From an uncultured bacterium (GTDB taxonomy: Bacteria > Verrucomicrobiota > Lentisphaeria > Victivallales > UBA1829): a DNA stretch of 37,994 nucleotides. The notes under the pieces are model-generated. The model saw nothing but the letters and a program-made list of their open reading frames with translations. It searched no databases and was not told where the DNA came from. Position 1 is the first letter of the stretch. Every line of letters begins with the position of its first letter. Position numbers and translations under genes: made by a program. The DNA is taken from the NCBI GenBank assembly GCA_949297765.1, contig CASFTV010000032.1:1-37994 (forward strand), given 5' to 3'. Shown here piece by piece: positions 5,870 through 33,738 of this stretch.

Positions 5870-6943
5870 ATGGGGCGAGCCGTACTTGGGAAAAATGACG
5901 TTTTCCGGAAACAGATTCTTTCGGAGATCGCGATCGGCATCTACCGTGAGGGGGAACGGCTGCCCGGCGAACGGGAGCTGAGCGAACGGTATCAGGTCAG
6001 CCGGAACACCGTCCGGCGGGCGCTGCAGGAGCTGGAACACGACGGAGTCCTTTTCCGGCGTCCTCCGGTCGGAACGTTTGTATCCGGAGGCGCGCTGATG
6101 CGCCTGAGGGCGAACCGTCCGCCGCAGCTGCAGGTCGCGGTTCTGATGAACAACGAAGAGTCGAACAACCCGATCTATCAGCAGATTTTCCGTTCCATGC
6201 AGGGGCATTTGCCGGATGAGGTCCGCTTGAACGTCTACTTCTGCGGTTCGTGCGACCGGCTGTTCCGCGCGGGAGAAGAGATTGATCTGGCTCTGGTGTT
6301 CGGCCGGTACCCGGAAGCGGAACTGGAGACATTGCGCCGCAGGGTCGGCGAGGTGATTATCTGGGGACGGGAATCGGAGAATTTTTCCTGCATCACCTGC
6401 GACAACTACAACGGAGGACGGCTGATGGCTCAGACCGCGATCGACGCCGGACACCGTCACCTTGCCCTGATCGGCCCCCGGGAAGAGGATGCCCGCGGCG
6501 AGTTCGCCCGACGGATCGCCGGTGTGGAGGATGCCTGCTGCGAGAACGGCGTTTCTCTGCTCTATCACCGGCTGACGCTGGAGGAATCGCTCAACCTTGC
6601 CGGAAGCATCTACTTTACGCTGGATGCGTTTCTGCGGGAAGATCCGGAATTATCCGTTGTGCTTTGTCTCTACGACAGCATTGCCCTGTCGGTGCTGGAG
6701 TGCTGCCGCCTGCGGGGAATCCCGGTGCCGGAGCACCTCAGCGTGATCGGTTTCGACGACCACTGCTATGCGGAGTTCATCACTCCGGCGCTGACGACGG
6801 TCCGCAACGTGGCAAAGGAAGCCGGGGTGCGGCTGGCAAACTATATCGAAAGCCGTCTGCGCGATCCGGCGGCATCTTCCGGGCTCCATGAAGTCCTCAG
6901 ACCGTTCCTGATCGAACGTGAGACGCTGCGCCGCTTCTGCTGA
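5870..6943 (+). CDS. GntR/LacI-hybrid transcriptional regulator (sugar-responsive)
   Basis: 357 aa, starting at ATG 5870 with AGGAGA nine bases upstream. Residues 10-75 are a GntR-type winged helix (GERLPGERELSERYQVSRNTVRRALQ pattern, then a wing ending VGTFVSGG). Residues 85-340 are a LacI/periplasmic-binding-like sensor: QVAVLMNN at its start, the GxxxA region around GHRHLALIG, and the typical SVIGFDDHCYAEFITPALTTV end strand. In this family (AraR-like) a sugar bound to the C-terminal domain releases the dimer from operators. Its place directly after a GH5/SGNH and GH78-like pair suggests it controls that operon. The operator and ligand are not identifiable here. Confidence 0.8.
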   Translation: MGRAVLGKNDVFRKQILSEIAIGIYREGERLPGERELSERYQVSRNTVRRALQELEHDGVLFRRPPVGTFVSGGALMRLRANRPPQLQVAVLMNNEESNNPIYQQIFRSMQGHLPDEVRLNVYFCGSCDRLFRAGEEIDLALVFGRYPEAELETLRRRVGEVIIWGRESENFSCITCDNYNGGRLMAQTAIDAGHRHLALIGPREEDARGEFARRIAGVEDACCENGVSLLYHRLTLEESLNLAGSIYFTLDAFLREDPELSVVLCLYDSIALSVLECCRLRGIPVPEHLSVIGFDDHCYAEFITPALTTVRNVAKEAGVRLANYIESRLRDPAASSGLHEVLRPFLIERETLRRFC

Positions 6944-29756: not shown

Positions 29757-29831
29757 GCCAGCTTAGCTCAGGGGTAGAGCTACGCACTTGTAATGCGTAG
29801 GTCCTCGGTTCAAATCCGAGAGCTGGCTCCA
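29757..29831 (+). tRNA. tRNA-Thr (anticodon UGU)
   Basis: Complete cloverleaf. Acceptor stem GCCAGCT/AGCTGGC; D arm GCTC-AGGGGTA-GAGC; anticodon stem ACGCA/TGCGT with loop CTTGTAA, anticodon TGT at 29789-29791 reading ACA; T arm CTCGG-TTCAAAT-CCGAG. The discriminator is T and CCA is encoded (29829-29831). Identity comes from the anticodon. The AT-richer island begins directly after it. Confidence 0.96.
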
Positions 29832-30019
29832 TCTTTTCCCTTGAAAATCCGAGATTCTTGTAGAAATCCTCAGATGCGTCAGGTATTGCCGTTGAAAAAT
29901 TAACCGGTCTTGCTGTTTTCCTATTGCTCTCTGCTCAGCAGGAGAATAAGCTTTTATCTCTGAAAATGATTCGGTTTTATGCTCTGTTTTGCCGGGAACT
30001 CTTGAAGTTTTTTCTTTCC

Positions 30020-30048
30020 TTGACATTTTCATGGTCTTGTGCTATTTT
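30020..30048 (+). promoter_or_regulatory. Promoter of sRNA copy 1
   Basis: TTGACA (30020-30025), 17-nt spacer, TATTTT (30043-30048) preceded by TTGTGC, an extended -10. The start should be the A at 30055, seven bases past the -10. Confidence 0.8.
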
Positions 30049-30054
30049 ATTCTT

Positions 30055-30225
30055 ATGACCAGAGCAAATCATTCAACGGATCAAACTTCTCAAAGAAGTC
30101 GTTGAAATGTAATATCTGCCAAAGCCGAGGAGGCTGCGGTTCAGCCCAAGTCTTGTGTGGCGCCTGTGTATCAGGTGACCTCCCTGACATGTCCCCGGTC
30201 GGCTTGACCGATTCGGGGTTTTTTT
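30055..30225 (+). ncRNA. Candidate novel small RNA, copy 1
   Basis: About 171 nt between its own promoter and intrinsic terminator, with no plausible coding frame. Hairpin I pairs CATTCAACG (30070-30078) with CGTTGAAATG (30100-30109) and holds an inner stem ACTTCT/AGAAGT (30085-30090/30094-30099). Hairpin II is AGCC-GAGGA-GGCT (30123-30135), presenting a GGA/SD-like loop. A conserved single-stranded AGCCCAAG follows, whose AGCC could compete for the same GGCT. Hairpin III pairs GGCGCCTG (30159-30166) with CAGGTGACC (30172-30180, one bulge), loop TGTAT. Hairpin IV is the terminator. Copy 2 keeps all four hairpins with different sequence in III and IV, which is covariation evidence for a functional RNA. 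I do not recognise a known family; a regulator binding CsrA-like or ribosomal targets through the GAGGA loop is a guess. Confidence 0.75.
30193..30225 (+). terminator. Rho-independent terminator of sRNA copy 1
   Basis: CCCCGGTCGG pairs with CCGATTCGGGG (outer CCCCG/CGGGG, one G-T pair and a bulge, inner TCGG/CCGA), loop CTTGA, followed by seven T (30219-30225). Confidence 0.85.
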
Positions 30226-30312
30226 ATGGAATCAATTTCAGGAATTTTCTGCTTCGATAAAGATCCAGGATGGAAAAATTGCAGAACGTTTCGTTTTTTT
30301 TTAGAAAAACTC

Positions 30313-30341
30313 TTGACATTTTCATAGTCTTGTGCTATCTC
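30313..30341 (+). promoter_or_regulatory. Promoter of sRNA copy 2
   Basis: TTGACA (30313-30318), 17-nt spacer, TATCTC (30336-30341) preceded by TTGTGC. The -10 is weaker than in copy 1 but the extended motif is the same. Start at the A at 30348. Confidence 0.7.
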
Positions 30342-30347
30342 ATTCCT

Positions 30348-30510
30348 AAGAAGCAAATCATTCAACGGATCAAACTTCTCAAAGAAGTCGTTGAAATGTA
30401 ATATCTTCTCGAGCCGAGGAGGCTCTACAGAAGCCCAAGCCATGTCCTTCTCTTTATGAGAACGATATGACACGTCCCGGTATGGCACACTGTCCATATC
30501 GGGTTTTTTT
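30348..30510 (+). ncRNA. Candidate novel small RNA, copy 2
   Basis: About 163 nt, same plan as copy 1. The 54 nt at 30353-30406 are identical to 30064-30117 (hairpin I). Hairpin II has one more base pair: GAGCC-GAGGA-GGCTC (30411-30425). AGCCCAAG is kept. Hairpin III differs in sequence, TTCTC-TTTAT-GAGAA (30448-30462) with outer ATGTC/GACAC-type pairs, but keeps a U-rich five-base loop (TTTAT against TGTAT). Hairpin IV is the terminator. Selection on structure rather than sequence in the 3' half, and on sequence in the 5' half, suggests a fixed 5' recognition part and a variable 3' part. Confidence 0.75.
30476..30510 (+). terminator. Rho-independent terminator of sRNA copy 2
   Basis: Ten-pair stem CCCGGTATGG (30476-30485) with CCATATCGGG (30494-30503), including one G-T pair, loop CACACTGT, followed by seven T (30504-30510). 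Confidence 0.88.
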
Positions 30511-30600
30511 ATGGAATCAATTTCAGGAATTCTCTGCTTCGATAAAGATTCGGAATGGAGAGATTGCTTTTTCAGAATTGATCCTGACGTTTTTTTATCT

Positions 30601-30924
30601 GACAAAGAGAAAATCCAGACCTTGATTGCCCAACAGCGAATCAATCTCGCTGACGTGGACTATCTTGATCTGGATTCTGTTGAAAAAATAATTCATGATT
30701 TTGAAAATTTCAAGAACATTTCCGGGAGGAATTCTGAAATTTCTCAAAAGAACATTCTTGAGCCGGAAAGAAGGAATCCGTATCTGACAATGCCGATCGA
30801 CATTGTTCGAAGACATGCAGAAACAGGCGTCCAGCTCGCAAAAGATGTCCTCTAAAAACGTACAGAAGAGAAACAAAACGAAGCTGGACTGGAACAGCCG
30901 AAGGATAAGAAAGAAGAGAAGCCG
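30601..30924 (+). repeat. 324-bp direct repeat, copy A
   Basis: Identical to 31386-31709 except for five substitutions (98.5%), one of which creates the TAA at 30853. Offset 785 bp. It encodes the end of the MuF-C-like domain plus a charged linker. Confidence 0.95.
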
Positions 30925-31385
30925 GGTGGGATGAGAGTCGGACAGGATAGTCTTCATGAAATCCACCCCGCATTCGATGATGTTTTGGAAAGGCAGATAA
31001 AAGGAGAGCTTCCGGACGGGATGTTTATTCTCTTGGAAAACCGTCCGATATTCTGCTCGGGACCGGCATTCCCAATTTCCCAATAGAACTTGCAAGTTCA
31101 AGGCTTTCGGATAAATCAAAACAGCCGAATCATCCATTCAAGATTGGCGAAGTGAAAAATTTACCGATCGCTTTGCAGAATCCTTTTGCCGTGTTCCGAT
31201 ATGGAGATGAAACAAAAGCGCAAAATATCATTGTGAACATTCAGCACGAAAACAAAAATTTCCTTGTCGGAATTCATTTGAATCAAAACAGCAGAGGTTT
31301 TGAAATCAATGATATTCGAGGCTTGTTCCCGAAAGACCTTCATGAATGGCTGAACTGGATTCAACAGGGAAAAGCATTGTATCTT

Positions 31386-31709
31386 GACAAAGAGAAAATC
31401 CAGACCTTGATTGCCCAACAGCGAATCAATCTCGCTGAGGTGGAGCATCTTGATCTGGATTCTGTTGAAAAAATAATTCATGATTTTGAAAATTTCAAGA
31501 ACATTTCCGGGAGGAATTCTGAAATTTCTCAAAAGAACATTCTCGAGCCGGAAAGAAGGAATCCGTATCTGACAATGCCGATCGACATTGTTCGAAGACA
31601 TGCAGAAACAGGCGTCCAGCTCGCAAAAGATGTCCTCCAAAAACGTACAGAAGAGAAACAAAACGAAGCTGGACTGGAACAGCCGAAGGATAAGAAAGAA
31701 GAGAAGCCG
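31386..31709 (+). repeat. 324-bp direct repeat, copy B
   Basis: Intact-frame copy of the repeat at 30601-30924. Sequence on both sides differs, so the duplication ends exactly at GACAAAG and AAGCCG. Confidence 0.95.
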
Positions 31710-32004: not shown

Positions 32005-33738
32005 TCAAAGAAGTCTTTGAATTTGAGTTCGGGAGGAAGAACGGTTTTTCCCGGTCACCTCCAAGCCCCTGGAGTCCGGTCCGGAAACCGATCTTCTCCA
32101 GCCTTCCCGGCTGCTGTTTGATTTTGTTGTAGTCTGAACAAAGTCCCCGATATTGATTTTCATGCCGATAATGACGGATTCTCCGTTTTTGATATTGTCG
32201 ATGGCAAGGGCAACGCTGTCGATCTGTTCTGCGGCGAGAGCGTTGTAAAGTTCCTCTTTTGAATCATACGCCAGCTGAGAAAGGACAAAATCATCAACGG
32301 AACCATGTTTTTTCTGGACATTCTTCAAGGCTTTCTGTGTTGCAGAGAGCAGGAATTTCGGGATCAGAGTCCCGAGAGATTCGCTTTTGCTTTGCGTTTT
32401 GTATTTTGCCTGAAGTCCGTCTTCGGAAAGTTCCGGTTCCGTCTCTGAATTGTTATCTTCTACGGCAGTGTTTCCAGAATCAGCCAGTACAGGTCGTAAT
32501 CCTCCGGATTCTCCACTTCTTCCAGCCAGTCCGGATGTTCCACGGCTGTTTTCAATCCCCACTTCAGATCCGTTTCGCAGGCCATCCAGCTCTGCCATCC
32601 CGCTGGAATCTCGTCCTCCTCGAACGGGAGTTCCGGGCAGCTTTCGTGAGCTCTCTCCAGCAGAGCGAGTGTCATTTCCAGACCGTTCTCCTTTTTGTAC
32701 TGTTTGAGCATCTGCCAGATCAGACTTTCCAGACACTGCCCCGCTTCTTTTTCCGTCTTCGGCGGTCCGTCCGTGATCCAGAGCATTGTGTTGGACATCA
32801 TTTGCCCGTTCTGTTCCAGTTTGTCCGAGTTCAGTCTCATGATTTTTGCACCAGGCAGCAATTCCATTTTCAACTCCTTTCAGTCTTTGGAAAATATTGC
32901 TCCAGTCTGCCAGTCTTTCAACCGGCTTTGATGAAAATTCAGTTGAAAAATCGGAATTTTCTTTTCTTCCGTTCAAGATGATGATCCGGATGGGATATCC
33001 GGCCCCTTGTTTTTTGTACAACTCGCCGGCTACCTCGAAACTGTCCGCGATATTGAAATGGTCATAGATGGAATTCAGGAACGGCTTTTCCGTTGGATTG
33101 ACTTTTGATTCAAGTTTATCCGCGGCACCAAGGATGATTGCCGCGGTCCCGTTTTTGTCAAGAGATTTCAGCGCCTGAAGAGCGATCAGATGTTCCAGTT
33201 TTGCGATTTTGAATTTTTCAAATTGAACTTTTCTATCCAGTCTGCCGAACGGAGGATTCATGATGATAGCATCCTGTGTTTCTTCTGGAGAGAAAGTTGT
33301 TGCGTCTTCGGATGTAACAGTTTTGAATCCGGAAGTTTTCAGAATTCCGTTTCGGATTTTTTCGATTTCATTGGCAGAAACACTTTCTGGCTTTGCTGCG
33401 ATAAGAAGAGCGCCGTTTCCTGCGGTGGGTTCATAAATATGATCGGCATTCCGGATTCCGATTGCACGTCCGAGCATATAGGCCAGCGGAACTGGAGTAG
33501 AATACGCCTGATTCATGACGCTTGTGGACGTTCTGGAATTCCGCAGCGGCATCTGTTCATCCGCTTCCTTCAGCGGCTTCTTCCGATGCTTTTTTGAACG
33601 TTCTGCTCCGGACGGCTTTTTGACGACTTCTGCTATCGGTTCGGATTCTTGTTCGGAGGCATATACCGGCCCGGATATTTTTTCAGGAGCATCTTCTGTT
33701 CTTCGCTGAGATCTTCCTCCTTCATCTCCCCTGTCCAA
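32005..33738 (-). pseudogene. Large polyvalent protein fragment: N6-adenine methyltransferase and truncated helicase
   Basis: 577 codons from TTG 33738. Residues 70-275 are a class I adenine methyltransferase with YSTPVPLAYMLG, motif I EPTAGNGALLIA and catalytic motif IV MNPPFGRL. Residues about 435-520 (AKYKTQSKSESLGTLIP, VDDFVLSQLAYDS, EQIDSVALAIDNIKNGESVIIG) match the segment before the Walker A of strawberry-notch-like helicases in LPPs. The frame then leaves the family right where GDxTGxGKGR is expected, so the helicase is cut off near 32165. Residues about 300-430 are Gly/Ser/Arg-rich and overlap another gene. LPPs are giant multi-enzyme proteins injected or carried by phages and conjugative elements; here it is a broken piece, convergent with the MuF-C remnant. 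Confidence 0.65.
32460..32867 (-). CDS. Unknown 135-aa acidic protein nested inside the LPP remnant
   Basis: The frame starts at ATG 32867 with AAAGGAG six bases upstream, the best SD in the island. The protein is acidic and Trp-rich (LWITDGPPKTEKEAGQCLESLIW, GWQSWMACETDLKWGL, EVENPEDYDLYWLILE), with no domain that I recognise. Codons have G or C at most third positions, like the chromosomal genes, whereas the overlapping LPP frame gives a Gly/Ser/Arg-rich low-complexity string here. The segment is a multiple of three, so the LPP frame stays open across it. Either an added gene overprints a disordered LPP linker or it was inserted there after decay. Confidence 0.6.
   Translation of the reverse strand: MELLPGAKIMRLNSDKLEQNGQMMSNTMLWITDGPPKTEKEAGQCLESLIWQMLKQYKKENGLEMTLALLERAHESCPELPFEEDEIPAGWQSWMACETDLKWGLKTAVEHPDWLEEVENPEDYDLYWLILETLP

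Follow-up and report, generated by a model that had tools for sequence, protein, structure and literature searches.

The window analysed here is a stretch of 37,994 nucleotides (nt) from an uncultured bacterium of the Victivallales (UBA1829; GenBank assembly GCA_949297765.1, contig CASFTV010000032.1, positions 1 to 37,994), and the subject is a pair of tandem small RNA units on the plus strand. A tRNA-Thr(TGT) lies 188 bp upstream of the twins and a phage MuF_C domain 0.6 kb downstream. The units consist of the following parts, the promoters being assigned from sequence.

30020..30048, plus strand: promoter of unit 1, TTGACA at 30020-30025, 17 nt, TATTTT at 30043-30048, with TG at -15; predicted start near 30055.
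30055..30225, plus strand: RNA unit 1 (c1), read as a free-standing copy of an LPD3-linked antisense RNA; R2 match of 171.9 bits.
30193-30218 (hairpin) and 30219-30225 (T-run), plus strand: terminator of unit 1, CCCCGGTCGG/CCGATTCGGGG followed by seven T.
30313..30341, plus strand: promoter of unit 2, TTGACA at 30313-30318, 17 nt, TATCTC at 30336-30341 (a weak -10); predicted start near 30348.
30348..30510, plus strand: RNA unit 2 (c2); R2 match of 180.1 bits.
30476-30503 (hairpin) and 30504-30510 (T-run), plus strand: terminator of unit 2, CCCGGTATGG/CCATATCGGG followed by seven T.
30171..30644, minus strand: open frame of 157 amino acids shadowing unit 2, a remnant of the linker behind LPD3; the LPD3 domain itself is missing.

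The original prediction for this locus had proposed twin units, each with a promoter, a body of about 165-170 nt and an intrinsic terminator with seven T, and all of these parts are present in the sequence at a spacing of 289 bp. It had also described an identical 5′ part of 54 nt in the core; the bodies are in fact identical over their initial 55 nt and have diverged beyond that, while a 73-nt core retains 95% identity and the twin repeat extends 67 bp beyond each terminator. No family reached its gathering score when the twin units were scanned against Rfam 15, in agreement with the proposal of an unrecognised family. The statement that the units have no coding frame holds for the plus strand and fails for the minus strand, where a frame is open across unit 2 and is interrupted by stops in unit 1, the terminator of which is intact. 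Both units shadow the peptide ..ILHFNDFFEKFDPLNDLL.., of which an intact coding version is found elsewhere in the same genome. Unit 2 may be decaying, since its -10 element is poor. The minus-strand frame at 30171-30644 gave a weak match to Pfam DUF6738 (E 1.9e-4, under the cut-off), and a search of 120 genomes for DUF6738 returned a single sub-threshold match; part of this protein family might be a shadow cast by RNA genes of this kind.

A third copy of the RNA was found on another contig of the same genome (C57), antisense within a 1151-codon open frame for a polyvalent-type protein and directly behind its LPD3 domain (PF18798, E 2e-15). A diverged fourth copy occupies the same place behind LPD3 in another genus (G013), where the antisense strand again carries TTGACATTTTC and a CCCCGG/CCGGGG-U5 terminator. 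For each of these two loci, only 1 in 300 synonymous-codon shuffles combined a promoter score of 10.5 or more with a terminator of -17 kcal/mol or lower. Since both copies are nested antisense behind LPD3, the twins are read from sequence comparison as free-standing copies of an RNA which elsewhere lies nested within a phage-type gene. A covariance-model search, which had been suggested together with the Rfam comparison as a check of the family, recovered just these four copies in 169 relatives and no Rfam family, and exact searches with 35-37-nt cores gave no matches in the viral and genome collections. One DNA match in a further genome (G019, locus L005) was rejected as a member, being a chance promoter-like match adjoining an unrelated gene.

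The constant and variable parts of the twins had been taken as the signature of a regulator family with one partner and different targets. An ordinary trans-acting small RNA of this kind, its constant part binding one partner and its variable parts different targets, would account for the common 5′ part, the diverged 3′ part, the promoter and the terminator. However, the homologues are found inside phage-type genes, antisense behind LPD3; the identical 54-nt 5′ part is not preserved in G013; and RNAs of the same arrangement at other loci, described below, have no constant part in common. The split is instead explained by duplication of a segment homologous to the LPD3-antisense copy on C57 and by divergence of unit 1. 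No pointer to base-pairing with several different mRNAs was found in the analyses made, and a plain small RNA with diverse targets, which we regard as improbable, was rejected on account of the antisense homologues behind LPD3. Likewise, it is not the shared 5′ module that delimits the family but its placement behind a phage nuclease-type domain.

The large polyvalent proteins made by phages and mobile elements are rich in nuclease domains. The generality of the arrangement was surveyed at 59 LPD3 places gathered by searches of the order (137 genomes) and the phylum (388 genomes), mostly in draft genomes, of which 56 loci entered the cassette tests. The antisense strand behind the LPD3 domain was scanned for a strict cassette, defined by a promoter score of at least 9 under a simple scoring scheme, a closing stem beginning 9-16 nt after the start of the -10 element, and a U-run at the 3′ base of that stem. 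These criteria were sharpened on part of the LPD3 set, and the same or near-identical rules were later applied to the MuF_C, ART and viral sets. Strict antisense cassettes were present at 13/56 LPD3 loci, where 200 synonymous shuffles per locus gave an expectation of 0.66, and the hairpin with its U-run alone at 23/56 against 3.1 expected from synonymous-codon shuffles; the sense strand yielded none in either test. Across the whole long frames (257 kb) there were 14 antisense cassettes and no sense cassette, with 2.5 expected. When promoter and hairpin were picked independently of each other, the hairpin base lay 10-16 nt past the -10 start in 11 of 18 loci, and at exactly 12 nt in seven. At this distance the RNA would start at the base of its own closing stem. 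Representative cassettes are those of L023 (TTGACA-17-TATACT, a 66-nt closed hairpin and TTTTT) and L033 (TTGACA-17-TATAGT, then 68 nt), and similar ones occur at L029, L038, L044, L061 and L074. Behind LPD3 at L043, L051, L067 and L078 the linker peptide VPYPGxNVNP / VPQSGxxVNP recurs; it corresponds to the reverse complement of TTGACATT...TGxGACAGT, and what looks like a protein motif reads as a promoter on the other strand.

These counts bear on an alternative explanation, that the sequence is conserved only as a protein linker and that the RNA features are coincidental. Linkers do retain the peptide motifs FFEKF and NVNP, and unit 2 has an open frame on its minus strand. The features are nevertheless lost in synonymous-codon shuffles, free copies keep the RNA without a frame, and unit 1 combines a stop-interrupted frame with an intact terminator. 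A coding-only explanation is thus highly improbable and was rejected, being contradicted by the shuffles and the free-standing copies.

The arrangement is not confined to LPD3. MuF_C, which has been classed as a PBECR and hence as a predicted RNase with the BECR fold (PMC5512222), was followed by an antisense cassette at 5/15 loci, with 0.09 expected. On viral contigs (GC 33 to 57%) the antisense hairpin with U-run was found at 13/16 MuF_C loci against 0.91 expected and never on the sense strand, and many of these viral loci have weak consensus promoters. ART-PolyVal domains, which occur in the same kind of proteins, served as the control because PBECR3 offered only three usable loci and MPTase-PolyVal is mostly encoded by small separate genes; cassettes were found at 0/18 ART-PolyVal loci, and the mean promoter score was 6.6 against 6.8 in shuffled sequences. 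The host frames of the nested RNAs span about 800-4700 amino acids and carry LPD3, MuF_C, ART and ParB domains.

Further cassettes lie behind unnamed domains on C57 and in G002 (domains marked by 'VQLVSVANSDLRQ') and in G247. Those at L004 (contig C57, about 695 nt past the end of LPD3) and L081 (G002, amino acids 3571-3616) are second nested antisense cassettes of about 100 nt; they have the sequence GGGTCGGGTTGGCTCCCGATACGGC in common, follow the domain end 'VQLVSVANSDLRQ..AVSGANPTL' and are headed by TTGACT/TTGACA-17-TATACT/TATGCT promoters. No cassette was detected at the LPD3 and PBECR1 ends of Helicobacter phages. In the Helicobacter phage BK070148 (L102), antisense hairpins with U-runs were seen at the PBECR2 and PBECR3 ends (-18.4 and -14.7 kcal/mol), at no fixed distance from a promoter; Helicobacter phages and further PBECR families may share the arrangement.

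The placement of hairpins at domain ends, in polyvalent proteins known to be strongly mosaic (PMC5512222), could also reflect palindromes acting at the DNA level, which would mark the boundaries of recombining polyvalent modules while the promoter-like and U-run parts are incidental. We give this little credence, as the U-run is never on the sense strand, the distance from promoter to hairpin is fixed, no such hairpins stand behind ART domains, and free-standing copies retain both promoter and U-run.

Conservation of the RNA fold was examined in both families. The MuF_C-linked RNA is a 67-nt hairpin in which 13 pairs display two-sided compensated changes, amounting to 34 cells in 12 gapless sequences; 0/500 shuffles gave such a result and slid controls gave 0-6 cells. 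Nested hairpins account for this covariation, and MuF_C loci with unrelated RNA sequences keep hairpins of the same length in the same place. Compensation is also evident in the LPD3 RNAs (L044 versus L061, L051 versus L053), partly via amino-acid changes. The covariation originally claimed for the twins is thin when c1 is compared with c2 alone; with the C57 and G013 copies included, 9/36 predicted pairs of the four-sequence window family have two-sided compensated changes, although some pairs break.

R1, a covariance model of the MuF_C RNA, disclosed a further nested copy in G119 and free copies in two relatives, three in G066 and one in G105, each composed of promoter, RNA and U-run with no toxin frame around; a match in G099 was weaker. 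The promoters of these free copies are TTTGCA-17-TATAAT, TTTGCA-17-TATATT or TTGACA-17-TATATT, and clear similarity is restricted to promoter, RNA and U-run. The G066 genome gave no MuF_C match. In the free copies the shadow of a lost coding sequence is still readable (TQRRTNPADVSHLDPDS), from which it would follow that they descend from nested ones. By inspection, the G105 copy adjoins a gene resembling a type I restriction subunit and one G066 copy lies 3 kb from an integrase-like gene. The G105 copy is 270 bp from tRNA-Thr(TGT), the same isoacceptor as in the window. Two free-standing RNA families are thus located just downstream of the same tRNA-Thr (6613-6688 and 6957-7030 of L192 in G105; 29757-29831 and 30055-30510 of the window), a possible shared integration hotspot in two genomes.

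Judged from sequence, nested antisense RNA genes with promoter, conserved fold and terminator very probably exist behind LPD3 and MuF_C. What they do is less certain. We consider the chances about even that the RNA is an antidote to the nuclease domain and that the twins are orphan 'immunity' copies of it, a reading suggested by the restriction to nuclease-type domains, the conservation of fold rather than sequence and the persistence of the RNA without a cis target. The RNA would be made in a lysogen or producer and fold, and the folded RNA might then bind and block the neighbouring RNase-type domain in the manner of a type III antitoxin. Its position on the reverse strand would let toxin domain and antidote move together during the shuffling of polyvalent domains, and free-standing copies could act as orphan immunity RNAs that protect against phages or elements bringing in the toxin. 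Slightly less likely than not, in our view, is the wider reading of a general and hitherto unrecognised class of phage toxin-antidote modules, in which the reverse strand of the toxin's coding sequence would encode a structured RNA antidote inseparable from it by shuffling, with orphan RNA copies, including the twins, kept by bacteria and mobile elements as immunity genes.

Several observations weigh against an antidote. More than half of the LPD3 loci lack a cassette under the criteria used, LPD3 of the Helicobacter phages among them, and the RNAs of the window family, at 150-170 nt, exceed the typical cassette in length and lack its simple closed-hairpin geometry, the twins themselves being less regular. 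At L089 (G050, amino acids 420-457) a strong antisense cassette (TTGACA-17-TATATT, 75-nt RNA, seven T) stands behind an MPTase-like region, read as such without a Pfam match, which is not nuclease-type. The BECR fold, for which a helix plus four or five strands, a His in the helix and a late Thr/Ser were sought, is not secured for LPD3: the low-confidence structure model has a helix and four strands, and H42 and T102 are invariant, but a Foldseek search with this model gave no support and hhalign found no match between LPD3 and MuF_C. Finally, nested copies are inherently complementary to the mRNA, so that they may have an antisense role.

Such a role is the main rival, and we consider it rather unlikely. 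An antisense regulator would pair with the polyvalent mRNA that it overlaps and lower expression by RNase III cleavage, attenuation or interference, somewhat like RNA-OUT of IS10, while free-standing copies would repress incoming genes in trans. The complementarity of the nested copies is complete, and sigma70-type promoters fit constitutive expression. This explanation is not easily reconciled with the location of the RNA in mid-gene behind a domain, away from the translation start, or with compensatory changes that preserve the fold. Free copies are just 54-78% identical to known nested copies, although a closer target may be unsampled, and antisense regulation does not predict an association with nuclease-type but not ART domains within the same kind of proteins.

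The antidote reading invites comparison with type III toxin-antitoxin systems (ToxIN, CptIN, AbiQ/antiQ), in which a structured RNA with an intrinsic terminator neutralises an endoribonuclease and which are likewise linked to phage conflict. In the known systems the RNA is upstream on the same strand, in tandem repeats, and pseudoknotted (PMC5086642), and a terminator separates the RNA gene from the toxin gene. Here, the RNA runs antisense within the reading frame of a large phage-type protein, behind one of its domains, with one RNA per site and no tandem repeats, the twins being separate transcription units, and orphan RNA copies occur. The antitoxins of type I systems and cis-antisense RNAs such as RNA-OUT resemble the present RNAs in being hairpin-shaped antisense RNAs of about 70 nt encoded over the gene possibly controlled, and the nested copies overlap the predicted toxin mRNA. 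They differ in that type I toxins are small hydrophobic peptides, whereas the host frames are very long here, and in that the RNAs described here lie away from the translation start, keep their fold by compensatory change, have free-standing copies and, in sequence families unrelated to one another, recur behind a class of domains.

On the protein side the arrangement is identical to MuF polymorphic toxins and to phage polyvalent proteins with PBECR domains, MuF_C and LPD3 being found in polyvalent genes. For MuF toxins small downstream immunity proteins have been proposed (PMC5576092), in contrast to the reverse-strand RNA gene described here, and the words 'antisense', 'promoter' and 'terminator' do not occur in the polyvalent-protein paper. 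Polymorphic toxin systems also have orphan immunity genes, which are similar as antidote copies without a toxin on islands; these encode proteins, whereas the candidates here are RNAs with a putative immunity role. No description of nested RNAs of this kind was found in the open PMC papers searched. If true, the arrangement would represent a new genetic architecture, with a toxin domain on one strand and an RNA gene on the other forming one module, and if the mechanism is neutralisation of an RNase by RNA, it would constitute a new branch beside the type III systems. Genes of this kind can be missed by annotation that filters out RNA genes lying within open frames, and conserved linker peptides may be promoters read backwards.

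The surroundings of the twins agree with the tRNA-linked site beside phage debris that had originally been described, and they include two nested-type copies of the MuF_C-linked RNA.

29757..29831, plus strand: tRNA-Thr (TGT), the island edge (ARAGORN; Rfam).
30605..30678, minus strand: MuF_C-linked 67-nt hairpin RNA behind a broken MuF_C copy (96.3 bits, part of the model).
30713-30685, minus strand: promoter-like TTGAAA-17-TATTTT of this RNA.
31110..31403, plus strand: MuF_C domain (PF18819), remnant of a polyvalent/MuF-type gene.
31390..31463, minus strand: MuF_C-linked 67-nt hairpin RNA, antisense behind the MuF_C domain (99.1 bits, part of the model).
31498-31470, minus strand: promoter-like TTGAAA-17-TATTTT of this second RNA.

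No second copy of the tRNA 3′ end was found in the window, and no att site was therefore defined. The RNA at 31390-31463 has a minimum free energy z-score of -4.1 against synonymous shuffles. By inspection, the minus-strand frame at 32005-33738 carries an NPPFG-type adenine DNA methyltransferase motif of the kind seen in polyvalent proteins, and is element debris.
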